NCBI RefSeq assembly: GCF_023824195.1
Contig: NZ_CP085442.1
Span: forward strand, 3,696,001 to 3,760,000
Length of the DNA: 64,000 nucleotides
Direction of reading: 5' to 3'
Source: Priestia megaterium
Lineage (GTDB): Bacteria > Bacillota > Bacilli > Bacillales > Bacillaceae_H
Each line of letters opens with the position of its first letter. Within the stretch, counting starts at the first letter, position 1. The position numbers and the translations under genes are program-made. The notes beneath the pieces are model-generated. The model was not told the DNA's origin. It did no database searches and worked only from the letters and a program-made list of their open reading frames with translations. This document shows positions 36,631-44,880 of this stretch, piece after piece.

Positions 36631-37896
36631 TTATACCCAAAGCGAACTCGTGCCTTCGTTTTCAAGATGCAGCACGTTCACTTCTGTTCCTTTATCATAT
36701 TCATGCTCTCCACCTGGGAGAACAATCAGCGCGTTTGCTGCAGCTAATGACGAAATAGCGCCTGACTTGTCCATGCCAACAGGCGTCACGACAAGCTTTC
36801 CACCTTCATCTGAAATCTCTCCTCGCACCATTCTCGTAAAAGCATTCGGTTCTTTGAAGCGGCCGTTTAACACCGCTATTGTTTTATGTAAATGGGGCCG
36901 TGGTGAATGTAAAAAGCTGCGAACAATCGGACGAACAAAAAGCTCAAACCCAACATAGCAAGCAGATGGGTTTCCAGATAATCCAAACAGCAGCTGCCCG
37001 TTTCGTTCTGCGACTGTTGTGACGCTTCCTGGCCGCATCGCAATTTTGTTAAATAGCACATTCGCACCAAGCTTTTCATAAATAGCCGGCAGGTAATCAT
37101 AGTCGCCAACGGATACGCCGCCGGTCGTTAGTAGAATGTCCACTTTTTCAAGCGCTTTTTCTACCGCTTCATAGCAGCGGTCAAAATCATCTTCAAGCTT
37201 CCCTAAATATTTCGGAATCCCGCCGCTTCTTACGATTTGTGCAAGTGCCATATAGGAGTTACTATTGCGGATTTTTCCTGGCTCTAACGGCTCGTTCACA
37301 TCAAGCAGTTCACTTCCTGTTGTTAACACGCCAACCACCGGCTGCTTCAACACAGCTACATCCGCATAGCCAAACGTAGCTAAAAAAGCTGTGACGCCTG
37401 GATTGATGCGCGTTCCTTTTGAAACAAGCACGTCTCCTTTTTTCGTTTCTTCTCCTTTTAACGCAATGTGCTCCCACTTTGAAGCCGGCCTGCTTAACGC
37501 CATACACGTTTTCCCTTCTTTTTCATACGAAGTTGTGACTTCAAGCATTACAACCGCATCACACGAATGAGGCACTTGCGCTCCTGTCATAATACGCACC
37601 GCTTGAAAAGGCTTTACTTCTCCTTCAAAAACAGAGCCTGCACCGATTTCACCTACTACTTCGAACTCAACAGGATGTTCACTCGATACTTCTACGCAGT
37701 CTTGCGCTCGAACCGCAAAGCCGTCGTAAAGCGATTTATTAAAATGAGGCACGTTTTGATCAGCGATAATATCTTCTCCTAAATAGCGTCCGTAGCTTTC
37801 GGTGATCGATACGCGTTCGATACTGCCTTTTCTTTTATATGTCATAACTTTTTCAATTGCTTCAGGAATTGAAATAGGTGTTCTGCTTTCTAACAT
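36631..37896 (-). CDS. moeA: Molybdopterin molybdotransferase MoeA
   Basis: A 421-residue MoeA, which inserts molybdate into adenylylated molybdopterin. Domains in order: N-terminal SIPEAIEKVMTYKR, QNVPHFNKSLYDGFAVRAQD, the MoaB/Mog-like domain with TTGGVSVGDYDYLP and GLSGNPSACYVGFELFVRP, and the C-terminal barrel (MVRGEISDEGGKLVV). The ATG at 37896 (MLESRTPI) follows GGAAGTG, while the longer frame starts inside that region. It is divergent from moaC-moaB, so this is a molybdenum cofactor cluster. Confidence 0.94.
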   Translation of the reverse strand: MLESRTPISIPEAIEKVMTYKRKGSIERVSITESYGRYLGEDIIADQNVPHFNKSLYDGFAVRAQDCVEVSSEHPVEFEVVGEIGAGSVFEGEVKPFQAVRIMTGAQVPHSCDAVVMLEVTTSYEKEGKTCMALSRPASKWEHIALKGEETKKGDVLVSKGTRINPGVTAFLATFGYADVAVLKQPVVGVLTTGSELLDVNEPLEPGKIRNSNSYMALAQIVRSGGIPKYLGKLEDDFDRCYEAVEKALEKVDILLTTGGVSVGDYDYLPAIYEKLGANVLFNKIAMRPGSVTTVAERNGQLLFGLSGNPSACYVGFELFVRPIVRSFLHSPRPHLHKTIAVLNGRFKEPNAFTRMVRGEISDEGGKLVVTPVGMDKSGAISSLAAANALIVLPGGEHEYDKGTEVNVLHLENEGTSSLWV

Positions 37897-38010
37897 ACAT
37901 TCTTCACTTCCTTTTTGTCTGTTCACTTTTTGCGCTATGGTGTAAAATCATAGCATATCTCACTATTTCTATCATACAACAAAATTTACTGAAAAAGGAT
38001 GAAAACACGG

Positions 38011-38499
38011 ATGTCTTCTTTTACACATTTTAATGACCAAGGCCGGGCCAATATGGTCGATATTAGCGAAAAATCTATCACTCGCCGCGTTGCAACAGCT
38101 CGTTCAAGTATACTTGTCAACAAAGAAATTCACGAAGCCATTGTAGAACATAAAATCGGAAAAGGCGACGTCCTTGCTGTCGCACAAGTAGCGGGAATCA
38201 TGGCGGCAAAACGCACGTCTGACATTATTCCGATGTGTCACCCTCTTTTATTAAAAGGCGTAAACCTTTCATTTGACTGGGATACAAGCAATAACCAGTA
38301 CCGTTTATTAATAGAAGCAACTGTTAAAACCGAAGGCTCAACGGGTGTTGAAATGGAAGCTTTAACCGCCGCTTCTGCCTGTGCATTAACCGTTTACGAT
38401 ATGTGCAAAGCCATTGATAAAGGAATGATTATCGGCGAAACGTATTTACTTGAAAAATCAGGCGGTAAAAACGGTGACTACAAACGCACGGAAGCGTAG
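38011..38499 (+). CDS. moaC: Cyclic pyranopterin monophosphate synthase MoaC
   Basis: A 162-residue MoaC, which with MoaA makes cyclic pyranopterin monophosphate from [63 protein letters not shown] and [11 protein letters not shown] are family signatures, with Asp127-like and Lys129-like active residues in YDMCK. The ATG at 38011 follows AAGGATGAAAAC. It is 15 nt from moaB, so both are co-transcribed. Confidence 0.95.
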
Positions 38500-38514
38500 T
38501 AAAGGAGGTACACA

Positions 38515-39027
38515 ATGAGCGTACACGAACATAAATCTAAAGCAACGCAGCCCGTTCGCTGCAAAGTCATTACGGTATCAGACACACGCACAAAAGAAAC
38601 CGATAAAAGCGGCGCGCTGATGATCCAACTTCTGAAAGAACACGACATGCAGGTCGCTTCCTATGAAATTGTAAAAGACGACCAAACGTCGATTCAACAA
38701 GCGATACTTGCCGGATGCAGTGATGAGGGCATTGACGTTGTTCTCACAAACGGCGGGACTGGCATCACAAAACGAGACGTCACGATTGAAGCCGTTCAAG
38801 CGCTGATTCATAAAGAAATCGTTGGGTTTGGCGAGCTGTTTCGCATGCTGAGCTACACCGAAGACATTGGCAGCGCAGCGATTATGAGCCGGGCAATTGC
38901 CGGGACAATTAACGAAAAAGCCGTTTTTTCTACACCGGGATCAAGCGGTGCTGTTCGTCTAGCTATGACCAAGCTGATTTTGCCTGAACTTCGCCACGCT
39001 GTGTGGGAATTAAACCGCCAGCGCTGA
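38515..39027 (+). CDS. moaB: Molybdenum cofactor biosynthesis protein MoaB
   Basis: A 170-residue MoaB that adenylylates molybdopterin: CKVITVSDTRTKETDKSGAL, DVVLTNGGTGITKRDVTIEA and the conserved FGELFRMLSYTEDIGSAAIM. AAGGAGGTACACA precedes the ATG. It is directly after moaC and before a terminator. Confidence 0.94.
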   Translation: MSVHEHKSKATQPVRCKVITVSDTRTKETDKSGALMIQLLKEHDMQVASYEIVKDDQTSIQQAILAGCSDEGIDVVLTNGGTGITKRDVTIEAVQALIHKEIVGFGELFRMLSYTEDIGSAAIMSRAIAGTINEKAVFSTPGSSGAVRLAMTKLILPELRHAVWELNRQR

Positions 39028-39028
39028 C

Positions 39029-39058
39029 AAAATGCCTATGCATACGCATAGGCATTTT
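39029..39058. terminator. Terminator between moaB and YuiH-like gene
   Basis: AAAATGCCTATGC and GCATAGGCATTTT around ATAC. Confidence 0.85.
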
Positions 39059-39060
39059 CA

Positions 39061-39723
39061 TTAATCATAGTCTTTATGTACCCACTCATCTTCTGGAATG
39101 CCTAAATCTTCTCCAGAAAAACGCTCTTCTTTAAACGGATCTCCTCTAAGATGAAAGCCGTTTTGCTCCCAAAAGCCAGGATGATTTTCATCAATGGCTT
39201 CAAAGCCTCGAAGCCATTTGACACTTTTCCAAAAGTACAAATGAGGCACAATCAATCGCAGCGGATATCCATGCTTAGGTGTAAGCGGCTCTCCGTTAAA
39301 GGAATGAGCGAGAAGAATATCGTCTCTCAGTAAATCTTTCACTTCAATGTTTGACGTATAGTCATTATCTCCGTGCAGCATGATGTATTTACTTTTTAAC
39401 TCCACGCCAACTGCTTTTAAAAAGTCTGTAAATAGCACGCCCGTAAATTCATTATCAAGTCTTGTCCATCTCGTTACGCAGTGAATATCGCATTTCACCG
39501 TCGTTTGCGGCATGTCCAATATATCTTGATAGGAAAGCGTCACTTCCCTGTCTACCAATCCAAACACCCGAAGCGTCCACTCTTCTAAGTTATACTTCGG
39601 CACGTCGCCTTCATGTAAAATCGGAAAGCGCTCTGTCACTACTTGCCCCGGAGGCACTCGTCCTTCATACTTTGGGTCAATTTCCGGTGTTTTCATTCGT
39701 TTAATACGGTCTGCTTTGTTCAT
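39061..39723 (-). CDS. yuiH: Sulfite-oxidase-family molybdoprotein (YuiH-like)
   Basis: A 220-residue protein of the sulfite oxidase/YedY molybdopterin-binding fold: PGQVVTERFPILHEGDVPKY, VDREVTLSYQDILDMPQTTV, the Cys ligand in KCDIHCVTRWTRLDNEFTGV and PHLYFWKSVKWLRGFEAIDE. Residues about 100-170 are the substrate-binding part. The ATG at 39723 has GAGGTGG upstream. It lacks a dimerisation domain and signal peptide, so it is a cytosolic YuiH form. Convergent with moaB, in a molybdenum cluster. Substrate unknown. Confidence 0.9.
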   Translation of the reverse strand: MNKADRIKRMKTPEIDPKYEGRVPPGQVVTERFPILHEGDVPKYNLEEWTLRVFGLVDREVTLSYQDILDMPQTTVKCDIHCVTRWTRLDNEFTGVLFTDFLKAVGVELKSKYIMLHGDNDYTSNIEVKDLLRDDILLAHSFNGEPLTPKHGYPLRLIVPHLYFWKSVKWLRGFEAIDENHPGFWEQNGFHLRGDPFKEERFSGEDLGIPEDEWVHKDYD

Positions 39724-39747
39724 AGGTACCACCTCTTTATTTTTTTA

Positions 39748-40665
39748 TCAGCGTGCACTTTGCTGACTTGTTTGATTCGTTTCGACTCCTTTATCTCGTA
39801 AGAAAAACATCGCTGCTAATGTCAGCACGTAAGGGACCATCATCGTAAACTCGGTCGGTATTGAAAAACCTTGTAGCCGTGTACTCACAGCATCCATTAA
39901 GCCGAAAAGTATACTTGACGCTAAAATACCGAGCGGATGAGACTGACCGAGCATCATCGCAACAAGTGCAATAAATCCACGTCCTGAAGTCATACCTTCT
40001 GAGAACATCGTGACTTGTCCTAATGAAAGCTGTGCTCCTGCAATCCCACACAGGATTCCGCATGCTGCAATCGCAAACAGCTGATATCTTATTGCTTTTA
40101 AACCAAGGGTACTTGCTGCTACTTTATTGTAGCCTACTGCTAAAAGACGGAAACCGAAAATCGTTCGATAAAAGAAGATATAAAAAGCAATAGCTGCTAA
40201 AAAAGCAAAATAGACAAGCGGCGACTGTCCGGAAATAATGTCGCCGATTACAGGTATGTCTTTGATCAAAGGAATATCCCATGTGCCTATCCCCTGCATA
40301 TTTTTATCGTAATAGGCACCTTTTGTATGAAAAATAGTCCGGAGTAAAAATGTCGTTAAGCCCAGCGCTAAAAAATTGATGGACACCCCAACAACAATTT
40401 CATTCGCTTTAAACACCACGACCATCATTCCAAAAAGCAAAGCAAAAAGTAAACTTGCTCCAGCAGCAATCACGATAGCAAAAAAGACATTATGAGTATA
40501 ATAGTTGCCGGCAATCCCGCTAAAAGCCCCAATCAAAATCAGACCTTCTAGTCCTACATTAAATATGCCCACACGCGCGCAAAGCATTCCGCCCAGCGCC
40601 GCTAATAAAATAGGCGCAACCATTCGTAACGTTGCATTTAACAGTGACCAATCAAGCAGCTCCAC
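39748..40665 (-). CDS. nupQ: BMP-family nucleoside ABC transporter permease 2 (NupQ/YufQ-like)
   Basis: A 305-residue permease with about eight or nine membrane helices and the family stretch LLAALGGMLCARVGIFNVGL and MLGQSHPLGILASSILFGLM. GTG at 40665 follows AAAGGAGCTGATATTC; the longer frame would start inside the previous gene. It overlaps the end of the upstream permease gene by 14 nt. It is the last gene of the nup-like operon, which imports nucleosides in B. subtilis. Confidence 0.9.
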   Translation of the reverse strand: MELLDWSLLNATLRMVAPILLAALGGMLCARVGIFNVGLEGLILIGAFSGIAGNYYTHNVFFAIVIAAGASLLFALLFGMMVVVFKANEIVVGVSINFLALGLTTFLLRTIFHTKGAYYDKNMQGIGTWDIPLIKDIPVIGDIISGQSPLVYFAFLAAIAFYIFFYRTIFGFRLLAVGYNKVAASTLGLKAIRYQLFAIAACGILCGIAGAQLSLGQVTMFSEGMTSGRGFIALVAMMLGQSHPLGILASSILFGLMDAVSTRLQGFSIPTEFTMMVPYVLTLAAMFFLRDKGVETNQTSQQSAR

Positions 40666-41719
40666 GAATATCAGCTCCTTTCTTTTTTGCTTTCCACCAC
40701 TGCTTTGTGAATTTTGCTGAGATAAATAGAATGAGTACAGCTTGCATAATACTCGCAATTTCTAACGGAATTTCTGTATTACGCTCTAGCCCCATCGCTC
40801 CTGTTTGCAAAGCGGCAAGTAAAAGAGACGTAAAAACAATTCCAATTGGATTCGAGTTGGCTAACAGGGCTGCCATCACTCCAGTCCACGCATATCCGGG
40901 AACGGTGAGCGCACCGTCTACAAAACGGTACTGTGAACCAAGCACTTCAAACCCTCCGGCTAATCCAGCCAAGCTCCCGCTAATAAACATACTGAACAGC
41001 ATGACTTTTACTTGATGAATACCACCATACGCCCCGAACAACGGATTTTTTCCGGATGCGTTCACTTCGTACCCAAACACAGAGTAGCGAAGCACGGTCC
41101 ACAGCAGAAGCGCACCGATTAGGGCAATGATAAATCCGATATGAAGAGGCATTCCTTGAAACACTTTTCCAAGCCACGCCGATTGCTCAATCATAGGCGT
41201 TTGCGCGAGAGCTGCTGAACCTGTTTTGTCTTGAAAAGGATGACCTGCTAAATAGCTTGCAAATAAAACAGCGATATAATTTAATAAAAGTGTCGAAATG
41301 ACGAGCTGAATTTTAAACGCGGCTTCCATCCAGCCTGCTAAAACAGAAAGCAAACCTCCTGCCACAACAGCAGCTGCAATAGCCGCTATAAGCTTGACTA
41401 TCCCTGGAGCTGGTAGGTAATAAGCGACAATTGCTGCGCTAATCGCTCCAACGACCATCTGTCCTTCTCCCCCTAAATTAAACACACCTGCTCTAAAAGC
41501 AAACCCGACACCTAACGCAATTAAAAGAATAGGCGTAGCGCGAGCCAGCGTAGTGGTGAAGAAATAAAAATTACCAAACGCTCCATTCCAGAGCTCTGTA
41601 TATGTTTGGAAAACCGAACCACCTGTTAAGGAGATAATAATGCCTCCTATTGCTAAGCCGAAAATGACCGCAATAACCGGCTGGATTAATGATTTAAGAA
41701 GTTTCTGCAACTGTATCAC
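40652..41719 (-). CDS. nupP: BMP-family nucleoside ABC transporter permease 1 (NupP/YufP-like)
   Basis: A 355-residue permease: LAIGGIIISLTGGSVFQTYTELW, FRAGVFNLGGEGQMVVGAI, GGFEVLGSQYRFVDGALTVP and GVMAALLANSNPIGIVFTSL. The start at 41719 is a GTG overlapping the ATPase stop by 26 nt; a TTG at 41710 following GAAGGTG is an alternative. It pairs with the second permease to form the channel of the importer. Confidence 0.9.
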   Translation of the reverse strand: MIQLQKLLKSLIQPVIAVIFGLAIGGIIISLTGGSVFQTYTELWNGAFGNFYFFTTTLARATPILLIALGVGFAFRAGVFNLGGEGQMVVGAISAAIVAYYLPAPGIVKLIAAIAAAVVAGGLLSVLAGWMEAAFKIQLVISTLLLNYIAVLFASYLAGHPFQDKTGSAALAQTPMIEQSAWLGKVFQGMPLHIGFIIALIGALLLWTVLRYSVFGYEVNASGKNPLFGAYGGIHQVKVMLFSMFISGSLAGLAGGFEVLGSQYRFVDGALTVPGYAWTGVMAALLANSNPIGIVFTSLLLAALQTGAMGLERNTEIPLEIASIMQAVLILFISAKFTKQWWKAKKKGADIRGAA

Positions 41720-43226
41720 CTTCTACCGTTCCTCCTGCCATTAATATGCTTAGTTTCTCTTCCGTTGCTTCTTCCCTTGTAAGCTCTCCGACAATACTGC
41801 CTTCGTACATAACTAAAATTCGATCTGATAGTGAGATAATCTCCGACAGTTCCGAAGACACAAGTAAAATAGCGGAGCCATTATTCCGTTTTTGAATCAA
41901 GGCATCATGAATACGTTCCATTGCCCCAATATCCACTCCTCGCGTTGGTTCAGCAGCAAGTAGAAAAGAAGTGTTTTGCCCAAGCTCTCTGGCAACAATC
42001 AATTTTTGCAGATTTCCCCCTGACAGTTCTCCAGCTTTTTGCTTAGATGAAGTGGCTTTAATCGAAAATTCATTTATCCATTCCTCCACGCTCGACTTGA
42101 ATATCTTTCTTTTAAGCCAGCCCATCTTCGAGTAAGAAGCTTTATACTGATAGCCCATCAGTGCATTTTCTTCGATCGTATCGTCCTTAGAGGCTCCCCA
42201 CATATAGCGGTCTTCTGGAATATGAGCGATTCCTGCCTCTCTTCTTTCACGCACAGATCGCCCTGTAAGATCTTCATCTCCAAGTTTGATACTCCCGCTG
42301 TCTGTTTCTACTAATCCAGCAATTGCTTGAAGCAGCTCCGATTGTCCATTTCCCGAAACGCCTGCAATACCGACAATTTCACCTGTAGAAACGTGAAGAG
42401 ACACATTTTGCAATACGTTTTTTTGTCCTTTTCCTTTTAAAAAGAGATTTTGTACGTTTAAATGAGAGGTACCTTGTGATGGCATTCTTGCAGGACGCTC
42501 TTTTAATTCTCGCCCTACCATCAGCCTGGCTAAGTGGTGAGCATTGGTATCTTCTTTACTTATGACGCCGGCTACTTTACCATTTCGAAGAACCGTAATG
42601 CGGTCCGCTACTTCCATCACTTCTTGCAGCTTATGTGTAATAATAATGATACTTTTACCTTGAGAAGCTAAAAAACGGATTGTTTTTAATAGTTCCTTCA
42701 CTTCATGAGGAGTAAGAACGGCGGTAGGCTCGTCTAAAATAATAATTTCTGCTCCTTGATACAGCACTTTTAAAATTTCAATTTTTTGCTGTTCTCCAAT
42801 TGAGCAATGTTTTACTTTCTTATGAACATCTACTGAAATTTGATAGGTTTGGGTTAATTGCTGTACATCTGCTTTCGCCTGCCTTCTATTAAAAAAGAGG
42901 CCTTTCTTTGGCTCATGCCCCAAGACAATGTTTTCAGCCACTGTAAAATGAGGAAAAACCATAAAATGCTGATGCACCATGCCTATTCCATTTTTGATCG
43001 CATCTGCAGGAGATGAAAACGAGACGGTTTTCCCATGTAGCTGAATACTTCCTGAACTCGGCTTTTCCATTCCGTAAAGTATCCTCATCAATGTCGTTTT
43101 CCCAGCGCCATTTTCTCCAACCAGCGCGTGGACCTCGCCTTTTTTCAGTTTAAAGGACACGTTATCATTTGCTAAAAATGAACCGTATTTTTTCGTCAAA
43201 TTCGTTAACTGCAGCAGCTCACTCAT
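41694..43226 (-). CDS. nupO: BMP-family nucleoside ABC transporter, double ATP-binding protein (NupO/YufO-like)
   Basis: A 510-residue protein with two ABC ATPase domains. First: Walker A VGENGAGKTTLMR, signature CSIGEQQKIEILK, Walker B IIILDEPTAVLT. Second: Walker A-like VSGNGQSELLQA without the standard Lys, signature LSGGNLQKLIVAR and AAEPTRGVDIGA. This is the layout of RbsA-like/YufO proteins, where the second site is degenerate. I place the start at the ATG 43226 with AAGGAG 11 bases upstream; an upstream ATG at 43235 sits too near the site. It follows the lipoprotein gene across a small hairpin. Confidence 0.92.
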   Translation of the reverse strand: MSELLQLTNLTKKYGSFLANDNVSFKLKKGEVHALVGENGAGKTTLMRILYGMEKPSSGSIQLHGKTVSFSSPADAIKNGIGMVHQHFMVFPHFTVAENIVLGHEPKKGLFFNRRQAKADVQQLTQTYQISVDVHKKVKHCSIGEQQKIEILKVLYQGAEIIILDEPTAVLTPHEVKELLKTIRFLASQGKSIIIITHKLQEVMEVADRITVLRNGKVAGVISKEDTNAHHLARLMVGRELKERPARMPSQGTSHLNVQNLFLKGKGQKNVLQNVSLHVSTGEIVGIAGVSGNGQSELLQAIAGLVETDSGSIKLGDEDLTGRSVRERREAGIAHIPEDRYMWGASKDDTIEENALMGYQYKASYSKMGWLKRKIFKSSVEEWINEFSIKATSSKQKAGELSGGNLQKLIVARELGQNTSFLLAAEPTRGVDIGAMERIHDALIQKRNNGSAILLVSSELSEIISLSDRILVMYEGSIVGELTREEATEEKLSILMAGGTVEGDTVAETS

Positions 43227-43270
43227 TCCATTCATTGCTCCTTTCCCCATTAGGATTTTTTCAAAAATAA

Positions 43271-43301
43271 GAAAGAGAAGCCAGCCTTACTCGACTTCTC
43301 T
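43271..43301 (-). terminator. Weak hairpin between nupN-like and nupO-like genes
   Basis: AAGAGAAG and CTTCTCTTT on the minus strand with a T-rich end. It can be a partial terminator or processing site giving more lipoprotein than ATPase. Confidence 0.5.
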
Positions 43302-43308
43302 TTTCAAC

Positions 43309-44319
43309 TCACTTTGCTAACGGATCTTTTACCACTGTTTTTCCATCAATAATCGAATCTTTAATTTCTTTTAATTGATCAATTACATCTTGCCCTACAA
43401 AGTCATTAAGAGGCGTCTTGCTGTCTTGAGTCACATACGTTAACCCAACACCTTTTTCTTTTAAGCCGTATGTCACTACGCCCGATTTAAATTTGTCATT
43501 TGCAAGTGCTTCTACCGTTTCATAAGCAGCCGCATCAGATCCTTTCAACTGCGATAAAACGATATGCTCAGGATCTACTTCCGTACGGTCAATATCTTGG
43601 CCTGCCGTATAAAAACCTTTTTCTTTTGCTGCTTCAAATACACCCAAGTCGCCTACCGCTGAAGCTCCGGCGATAAAGTCAGCTCCTTTTGAAGCCTGTA
43701 AAATAGCAAGTTCTTTTGCCTTAGCTGGGTCAGAGAAGCTTCCAACATAGTTTACTAGAAACTCTGCTTTTGGATTTGTTGATTGTATTCCTTCTTTAAA
43801 ACTTACCGTCCATTTTTTTAATAATGGAATATCATCAGCTGCAACCATTCCTACTTTATTCGTTTTTGTAACCAATCCTGCCGCTGCTCCTAATAAATAT
43901 GAAGCTTCTTGTTCACGGAATACAACGCTTCTTACATTTGGTAAATCGACCACTGTATCAATAATCGCAAATTGACGCTGCGGGTTTTCTTGAGCTACTT
44001 TTTTCAACGCATCTTCGGATTCAAAAGAAGATGTAATAATCAAGTCATAGTTTTCTGCTACGGCAGCACGCAAATTACTTTCAATGGCTGCTTGGTCCGT
44101 AGATTCAATTGTCTTTACATCAATGTTATACTTCTTCCCAGCGCGTTTTGCTCCATCATCCATTTGTTGAAAAAACGGGTTAACTCCAATCTTTTCAGGT
44201 AAAACAAGAGCAATTCGCTTCTTTCCTTTCTCTTCGCTTCCACTGCTTTTTGTGCTTTTTGACTGACAGCCAGTTACGAGTAGTACAAGCGCAACTGCTA
44301 AAATAAGAAACCTCTTCAT
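43309..44319 (-). CDS. nupN: BMP-family substrate-binding lipoprotein (NupN/YufN-like)
   Basis: A 336-residue lipoprotein: MKRFLILAVALVLLVTGC (lipobox, Cys18), then a periplasmic-binding-protein fold with RIALVLPEKIGVNPFFQQMD, VAADDIPLLKKWTVSFKEGI, IAGASAVGDLGVFEAAKEKG and VGLTYVTQ. The BMP family binds nucleosides; the B. subtilis operon nupNOPQ imports guanosine. Here the operon follows a SAM-I riboswitch, so its ligand is probably linked to the methionine/SAM cycle. This is the first gene of a four-gene operon. Confidence 0.9.
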   Translation of the reverse strand: MKRFLILAVALVLLVTGCQSKSTKSSGSEEKGKKRIALVLPEKIGVNPFFQQMDDGAKRAGKKYNIDVKTIESTDQAAIESNLRAAVAENYDLIITSSFESEDALKKVAQENPQRQFAIIDTVVDLPNVRSVVFREQEASYLLGAAAGLVTKTNKVGMVAADDIPLLKKWTVSFKEGIQSTNPKAEFLVNYVGSFSDPAKAKELAILQASKGADFIAGASAVGDLGVFEAAKEKGFYTAGQDIDRTEVDPEHIVLSQLKGSDAAAYETVEALANDKFKSGVVTYGLKEKGVGLTYVTQDSKTPLNDFVGQDVIDQLKEIKDSIIDGKTVVKDPLAK

Positions 44320-44342
44320 TTAACTTACTCCCCCTATAATAT

Positions 44343-44376
44343 AAAAAAAGCTCTTCCTTTATATAAAGGAAGAGCT
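44343..44376 (-). terminator. Riboswitch terminator
   Basis: AGCTCTTCCTTTAT and its exact complement form a 14-bp hairpin, followed by seven U. Its 5' arm CTCTTCCTT can alternatively pair with GAGGAAGAG of the aptamer's 3' P1 strand (antiterminator). Confidence 0.92.
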
Positions 44377-44393
44377 CGTTAACCAAACGTCTC

Positions 44394-44502
44394 TTCCTCA
44401 TCTTCAAGAACATACTGTTCTTAAGGATTTGGCACCATTCTGTCATAGACAGCGGTTGCCGGGTTTCACAGGGCCAGTCCCTCCACCTCTCTTGATAAGG
44501 AA
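44394..44502 (-). ncRNA. SAM-I (S-box) riboswitch upstream of the nup-like operon
   Basis: The minus strand reads TTCCTTATCAAGAGAGGTGG, AGGGACTGGCCC, GAAACCCGGCAACC, GGTGCCAAATCC and GATGAGGAA. These are the S-box core elements in order. The closing P1 helix TTCCTTATC/GATGAGGAA is fully paired. A terminator follows that is mutually exclusive with an antiterminator, so SAM binding should stop transcription. S-box RNAs normally control methionine and SAM uptake and synthesis genes. Placement before a BMP-family importer is unusual. Two TTGAC -35-like sites lie upstream at 44530-44560; I cannot choose between them. Confidence 0.95.
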
Positions 44503-44880
44503 AACAATAGCTATTTGTTTTATGTAATATAGTCAATATTAATAGTTTTTTAACAATTGTCAATATTATTTTTCTTTTTCGCATAAAAAACTTTAAAAAC
44601 AGATAGGATTATAGGGTTTTATTCTACTAAAATACAATCTAAGGCCTTTACCCTTCTCCATCAATCATCGTATATTTCCTAGCAAAACGTTTATAGTAAA
44701 TTGCTGATTTTCTTATTAATAAAAGAATGTTTATTTGTAGCAGATTACTTTTATTACACCTCTTCAGTTAATGGGCTATGGATTGAAATCACTTTACCAA
44801 GAATGTTGGAATGGTAGTTATTTTTATTACTAGTATTGTAGTAACAGGTATAACAAGAGCGAAACTAAGATAAGATAAAG

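Follow-up and report, generated by a model that had tools for sequence, protein, structure and literature searches.

Which compound is taken up when an ABC importer of the BMP class is placed under a SAM-sensing riboswitch? The question is raised by a 64,000-nucleotide stretch of Priestia megaterium DNA, the whole of which was analysed here and is called the window, where such a riboswitch heads an importer operon. We propose that this is a SAM-I-switched salvage operon importing methylthioadenosine (MTA) and/or its sulfoxide, a reading to which we give a probability of about 0.7. Its computed foundations are the riboswitch and its expression platform, the gene order and its conservation, and the ties to mtnA/mtnK and to PurR-type boxes. 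The features of the locus, in the order of transcription, are the following.

44535..44563, minus strand: promoter-like TTGACA-N16/17 element upstream of the aptamer (consensus scan, 10/12 matches)
44395..44501, minus strand: SAM-I (S-box) aptamer (RF00162; our covariance model R1 gives 104 bits in G034 and 105.6 in G031, two genomes of the same genus)
44391..44399, minus strand: antiterminator 5' strand GAGGAAGAG (sequence and pairing; overlaps the last P1 strand of the aptamer)
44366..44374, minus strand: antiterminator 3' strand CTCTTCCTT (sequence and pairing; shares the terminator 5' arm)
44343..44377, minus strand: intrinsic terminator with a 13-pair stem, a 4-base loop and seven U
43309..44319, minus strand: bmp, substrate-binding lipoprotein of the BMP family, 336 aa, lipobox LLVTGC by eye (PF02608, 202.6 bits, cut-off 24.1)
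43272..43303, minus strand: hairpin resembling a terminator, past bmp and ahead of the ATPase gene, a possible attenuator (pattern scan)
41694..43250, minus strand: ABC ATPase with two nucleotide-binding domains, 518 aa (PF00005, two stretches)
40652..41719, minus strand: permease 1 (PF02653, 130.8 bits)
39748..40758, minus strand: permease 2 (PF02653, 123.5 bits)
39061..39732, minus strand: YuiH-like molybdopterin oxidoreductase of the sulfite-oxidase fold (PF00174, 154.4 bits)
39029..39058, no strand assigned: perfect inverted repeat AAAATGCC...GGCATTTT, read from the sequence between the convergent yuiH and moaB, a probable two-way terminator

The SAM family RF00162 matches positions 44501-44395 of the minus strand over its full length with 101.2 bits against a cut-off of 44.4 (E 2.2e-23), and it is the sole Rfam family reaching its gathering threshold within the 64-kb window. 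The complete S-box aptamer that the original prediction had placed at 44394-44502 is thus significant under the SAM-I model, with its borders shifted by one base at each end. Sequence, fold and pairing also bear out the predicted mutually exclusive antiterminator and terminator, the two antiterminator strands forming nine pairs. The terminator had been described as a 14-bp stem followed by U7; the seven U stand, but the stem has 13 pairs. The leader folds with a minimum free energy of -60.4 kcal/mol (z -4.3), and none of 200 shuffles did as well. Seventy-five bases separate the aptamer from the bmp start on the same strand, 28 bases lie between the terminator hairpin and the bmp start codon, and strand, spacing and platform agree that the riboswitch belongs to the importer transcript, as had been assumed. 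It is near certain from these sequence features that a SAM-I riboswitch stands at the head of the BMP importer operon. The promoter-like site is a pattern match only, with 16 such sites in the scanned stretch versus 13.9 expected from shuffles; its TTGACA is conserved in G034 and G031. As in other RF00162 systems, an aptamer far above the gathering score is joined to a terminator/antiterminator platform for which OFF logic is expected; the difference lies in the target, a BMP importer or yuiH, which was not met in the accessible portion of the open-access S-box literature searched.

The four-gene operon foreseen behind the riboswitch is present in the order bmp, ATPase, permease, permease, but a fifth co-directional gene, the yuiH-like one 15 bases past the last permease, had been missed. 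The Pfam domain, the two-domain ATPase and the two permeases that characterize the BMP/PnrA importer class were all found, and the earlier label "nupNOPQ-like" is sound in naming a BMP importer (PF02608) but loose, the lipoprotein falling in a clade of its own. The true start of permease 2 probably lies downstream of the listed TTG, overlaps of 14-23 bases being frequent in relatives, and the YuiH-like protein, which has no signal peptide by eye, likely begins at the ATG at 39723. The hairpin at 43272-43303 perhaps allows more lipoprotein than transporter to be made; hairpins of this kind were seen at 6 sites versus 5.4 expected in shuffles. Assignment to the putative B6 importer of NCBIfam (NF047927) was rejected at 72.7 bits against a cut-off of 400.

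A scan of named genomes yielded 80 related loci, 78 of which keep the order bmp, ATPase, permease, permease, yuiH, nucleoside phosphorylase; the exceptions stop at a contig end (L034) or are without a yuiH match (L096). Model R1, built from 13 S-boxes of the window genome (G000), gave at E up to 1 a single match in each of 29 of the 80 loci, always directly upstream of bmp, and no other S-box in the 1.3 Mb scanned around the 80 loci, which answers the question left by the original prediction whether other genomes keep the S-box and the BMP operon together. The carriers are named as Bacillus-like genera and Brevibacillus. The S-box is absent from 50 of the 79 assessable loci, namely all 42 of Paenibacillus and 8 others, L030 being left out because its upstream DNA is too short. 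All 30 leaders (the window and 29 relatives) have a terminator, and all but L045, with only 5 pairs, have an antiterminator of 6 pairs or more; 25 of these 29 antiterminators begin at the aptamer's last P1 strand and 4 pair best elsewhere. No weak S-box appeared at E up to 10 in the 8 S-box-less loci outside Paenibacillus with full upstream DNA, and another Rfam riboswitch before S-box-less operons was rejected, with none at the gathering score in 8 loci. Within the genus only 2 of 10 genomes carry this bmp (E to 1e-80), and within the family only 2 of 16 do (E to 1e-100); G034 has the same operon start, S-box included. In plasmid and phage collections all matches were short or distant. A rapid alignment covering 16 of the 42 Paenibacillus leaders revealed a possible promoter.

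Many of these operons appear to carry a second sensor. The inverted repeat CGAACATT-N18-AATGTTCG, first noticed in S-box-less leaders and searched for as a PurR-type box pair of constant spacing in which as many as 3 mismatches were allowed, occurs in 22 of the 29 S-box loci, between the S-box and bmp and 60-143 bases past the aptamer, and in 8 of 9 S-box-less loci outside Paenibacillus (L030 counted), with 9 occurrences in 3800 shuffles. It was found neither in the 42 Paenibacillus loci nor in the 420 bases upstream of bmp in the window. Three genomes, two with the S-box and one without, were searched throughout: in two of them no site but the operon copy matches with 0 mismatches, and in the third the operon copy, at 1 mismatch, ranks with the best sites. 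At up to 2 mismatches these genomes hold 11, 19 and 14 sites versus 9, 11 and 8 for a reversed control, a modest excess which implies that many weak copies are chance. Of 25 sites read, 3 belong to the operon itself. Seven stand in front of genes identified by HMM as purE, glyA (two), xpt (two), guaC or purT; 3 precede permease-like genes unnamed by NCBIfam, and several lie inside genes or near unrelated ones. The genes purE, glyA, xpt and guaC are classical targets of PurR in Bacillus subtilis. Judged from these boxes, the operon of most non-Paenibacillus relatives would seem to respond to a shortage of SAM, of purine, or of both, and combined methionine and purine control fits MTA. A riboswitch sensing SAM and a repressor sensing purines, each independent of the other, would then call for one nutrient, seemingly because MTA supplies both methionine and adenine. 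Three S-box-less leaders (L050, L051 and L055; upstream of 8001) have a CTCTTCC...GGAAG hairpin that resembles the terminator of S-box leaders; they look as though the aptamer had disappeared and left behind the portion with the PurR boxes.

The binding protein itself points to a nucleoside-like ligand. The structure model of the BMP protein has its best fold match in 7x0r, Lbp with guanosine, and its matches are nucleoside binders; the models are moderate and ligand-free (pLDDT 80.2 for BMP and 77.6 for the second model, from 14 and 7 sequences). According to the accessible text of PMC13325309, the BmpA pocket has an aromatic pair together with an Asp and a Lys on the ribose side. Residues F50, F195, D121, D242 and K259 align with Lbp/PnrA, BmpA being unaligned and its numbering transferred by motif only. 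The base-loop motif DxSFN is absent from all 14 proteins compared, which have an NPFFQQ-like sequence instead, and an extra aromatic, Trp or Tyr, stands at BmpA Phe151. Loops at the place of base recognition differ between BmpD and PnrA (available part of PMC7093131), and in pneumococcal PnrA they tune the choice of base, as told in the part of PMC13325309 at hand. The tree places the operon BMP proteins in a monophyletic, separate clade, several long branches making it unsure; orthology with clostridial mtnA-linked BMP proteins was rejected, their sister grouping being unsupported. It is a fair reading of sequence and model that the lipoprotein would bind a nucleoside-like ligand with altered recognition. 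The system resembles PnrA/BmpD/NupN-type importers in its fold, lipoprotein, two-domain ATPase, two BPD_transp_2 permeases and, as far as alignment indicates, the aromatic pair with Asp/Lys, and differs from them in the base loop, the Trp/Tyr for Phe151 and the separate clade.

The phosphorylase encoded by the sixth gene of the relatives may narrow the choice of ligand. Four phosphorylases were scanned and fall below every NCBIfam cut-off listed, and uridine phosphorylase (TIGR01718) was rejected at 150-165 bits against 280.3 in all four. By sequence, the PDB entries closest to the phosphorylase are those of Plasmodium falciparum PNP (PfPNP); with a predicted model a PfPNP entry also ranks first by fold, uridine phosphorylases scoring nearly as high. 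The catalytic positions Arg45, Arg88, Met183, Glu184 and Asp206 are shared with PfPNP and invariant in 79 of 79 copies, whereas His7 occurs in none (Asn in 34, Ile in 45) and Tyr160 is replaced by Phe in all 79. In PfPNP, which accepts 5'-methylthioinosine, His7 holds the nucleoside 5'-hydroxyl, so its replacement would suit a nucleoside without that hydroxyl.

Gene neighbourhoods point in the same direction. When the phosphorylase was searched for across the phylum, 16 places scored 246 bits or more, 4 of them in the same operon; the remaining 12 and one from a separate search make up 13 non-operon regions, and 22 of 43 lower-scoring rows served as control regions. Gene mtnA lies near the phosphorylase in 10 of the 13 regions versus 0 of 22 controls (p 1.6e-6, overstated since the genomes are related) and was confirmed by HMM in L133, L134, L136, L137 and L141; the regions without it are L138, L139 and L167, of which L167 is truncated by the end of its contig. 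Region L136 reads mtnA, alcohol dehydrogenase, phosphorylase, bmp, ATPase, permease, permease, and L133 additionally has a class II aldolase and an amidohydrolase. Genes for BMP proteins occur in L136, L139 and L141, with a fragment in L138, and also in 6 of the 22 controls with ordinary phosphorylases, so a bmp beside a phosphorylase is not specific by itself. From this context we infer that the relatives' phosphorylase is a candidate for action on 5'-methylthio nucleosides. Its role as an MtnK substitute was rejected, since mtnK was found in every one of the 25 genomes tested among those behind the 80 loci. R1 detected no S-boxes near the clostridial mtnA-phosphorylase clusters; cobalamin riboswitches were seen in 3 of 8 such regions scanned (L134, L135 and L137). 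The window operon is without a phosphorylase gene, and its genome holds no close copy, the best match (28%) being a DeoD-type protein.

The yuiH gene is tied to the same pathway. Across 199 genomes of the order YuiH was matched at 51 places, the best 30 of which were read. Among these best 30 of 51, the ten loci closest to the window YuiH (at least 56%) group with the operon proteins, and an S-box lies directly upstream of yuiH in 7 of the ten versus 0 of 20 in a sister subfamily. The other three are G000 and G034, in which the S-box heads the whole operon, and L174, without one. Loci L177, L178 and L180 read S-box-yuiH-mtnK-mtnA, with a second S-box facing away and mtnW behind it; HMMs confirm mtnK in L177 and L180 and mtnW in L177. 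In G031 (L173) the leader of window positions 44300-44620 stands directly before yuiH with no importer, the importer block having been either deleted in G031 or inserted in the window genome. The sister subfamily (L181-L200, 48-54% identity) has a BioY gene nearby in 12 of 20 loci (five Pfam-checked) among the best 30 of 51; a Na+/H+-antiporter-like cluster gene is likewise present in 12 of these 20 loci (one Pfam-checked), again within the best 30 of 51. In a comparison that drew on 21 of the available operon yuiH rows, the motif beside the presumed molybdenum Cys is HCVTRW in 31 of 31 rows versus HCVTGW in 20 of 20 of the sister subfamily.

Bacillus YuiH shares with MsrP and other sulfite-oxidase-fold enzymes the PF00174 domain and the Cys of HCVT[RG]W, which we take to be the molybdenum ligand; within the family, the HCVTRW subfamily is S-box-linked, whereas its HCVTGW sister is BioY-linked. 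Identity with MsrP (47.6 bits, cut-off 207) or with the SoxC sulfite dehydrogenase (75 bits, cut-off 420) was rejected. Both biotin and MTA contain a thioether sulfur that oxidises to the sulfoxide. YuiH may be read as a thioether sulfoxide reductase, for which we see a chance approaching even, and the HCVTGW subfamily as a candidate biotin sulfoxide reductase. MTA sulfoxide has been measured in human cell-culture supernatants as an extracellular metabolite (accessible part of PMC2219991), and the YuiH family is termed uncharacterised in the available text of PMC8453073.

The following scheme is proposed. When SAM is plentiful, the aptamer would keep its P1 strand and the terminator would form; when SAM is low, the antiterminator would form and the importer would be made. 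The lipoprotein, ATPase and two permeases would then import a SAM-derived purine thionucleoside, likeliest MTA and/or MTA sulfoxide, and the YuiH-like molybdo-enzyme would reduce the sulfoxide to the thioether. In the relatives the phosphorylase would yield adenine and 5-methylthioribose-1-phosphate, the latter entering methionine salvage through MtnA; in the phosphorylase-less window genome, which has both mtnA and mtnN (MTA/SAH nucleosidase), MtnN and MtnK could do the same job. An MTA-class ligand is in our estimation probable, and the SAM breakdown product of MTA type named by the original prediction is supported and probably right, given the mtnA-linked phosphorylase, the S-box-yuiH-mtnK-mtnA operons and the PurR-type boxes. 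More tentative, and rated by us somewhat below even odds, is a dedicated MTA-sulfoxide route in its entirety, in which a SAM riboswitch (with PurR in relatives) would govern BMP import, cytosolic reduction by YuiH and processing by phosphorylase or MtnN/MtnK, the sister YuiH acting likewise on biotin sulfoxide beside BioY.

The structurally solved BMP proteins bind plain nucleosides, PurR-type boxes lie upstream of many of these operons, and BMP importers stand beside ordinary phosphorylases in 6 of 22 controls, all of which would suit a general importer of purine nucleosides (adenosine, inosine, guanosine) placed under the S-box because purine and one-carbon supply needs methionine. This would, however, leave unexplained why yuiH is part of the operon, why it elsewhere forms operons with mtnK and mtnA, why the phosphorylase has mtnA nearby and why its His7 is absent, and the DxSFN of the compared nucleoside binders is replaced in 14 of 14 proteins; we consider such an importer unlikely, and adenosine or guanosine less likely than MTA as the main ligand. 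S-adenosylhomocysteine (SAH), SAM and 5'-deoxyadenosine are, like MTA, 5'-modified adenine nucleosides, and a SAM OFF switch would suit uptake of SAM or SAH. Neither SAH nor SAM is known as a substrate of such phosphorylases. The mtnK and mtnA neighbours indicate methylthioribose, against all three. 5'-Deoxyadenosine can share MTA-type phosphorylases (review PMC6302742, available part), but it contains no sulfur, which makes S-box control odd. Import of any of the three instead of MTA is therefore judged quite improbable.

A different doubt concerns YuiH, which might be unrelated to the imported compound and merely co-regulated, reducing methionine sulfoxide or oxidising sulfite. This is compatible with MTA import, and we hold it possible though doubtful. 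Its similarities to sulfite dehydrogenases and MsrP, weak and all far below the cut-offs, and the S-box-yuiH arrangements without an importer in several genomes speak for such independence; the location of yuiH, which in 78 of 80 loci separates the importer genes from the phosphorylase gene, its place at the head of mtnK-mtnA in 3 loci and the BioY genes near its sister subfamily in 12 of 20 (best 30 of 51) speak against it. If YuiH reduces imported MTA sulfoxide and its sister subfamily does likewise with biotin sulfoxide, the YuiH proteins would form a reductase family acting on small thioethers taken up by the cell, and the operon context offers a candidate function for them.

The survey of S-boxes published in 2004 by Rodionov and co-workers may mention such operons. 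Within the accessible parts of the open-access literature considered here (including PMC3766115, PMC6302742, PMC4958253 and PMC8453073), no S-box-controlled BMP importer, no MTA importer of BMP type and no function of YuiH is described. Uptake of MTA has been seen in Rhodospirillum rubrum, the transporter being left unassigned by the authors (PMC4958253, available part). The MetINQ uptake proposed there is alike in that MTA is imported and used as a sulfur source, but the suggested carrier is a methionine importer and not a BMP system. The operon supplies a candidate bacterial MTA importer whose predicted ligand is testable.

The genome of the window, G000, has 6.0 Mb and 14 S-boxes. The genes behind them, as we read their translations by eye, are presumably yitJ-like, metN, metE, metI, mtnK, mtnW, metK, cysH and others, and the set is a normal methionine regulon. 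Three BMP proteins were found in this genome, one of which (L015) groups with PnrA of Streptococcus pneumoniae, and no PF00174 match other than the operon yuiH was found in the genome. The molybdenum cofactor genes moeA, moaC and moaB (36631-39027) adjoin yuiH in the window and had no match in the stretches examined around the 80 relative loci. Two further S-boxes of the genome (L006 and L014) precede, by eye, a Na+/H+-antiporter-like gene and, some distance off, a deacylase/peptidase-like gene.
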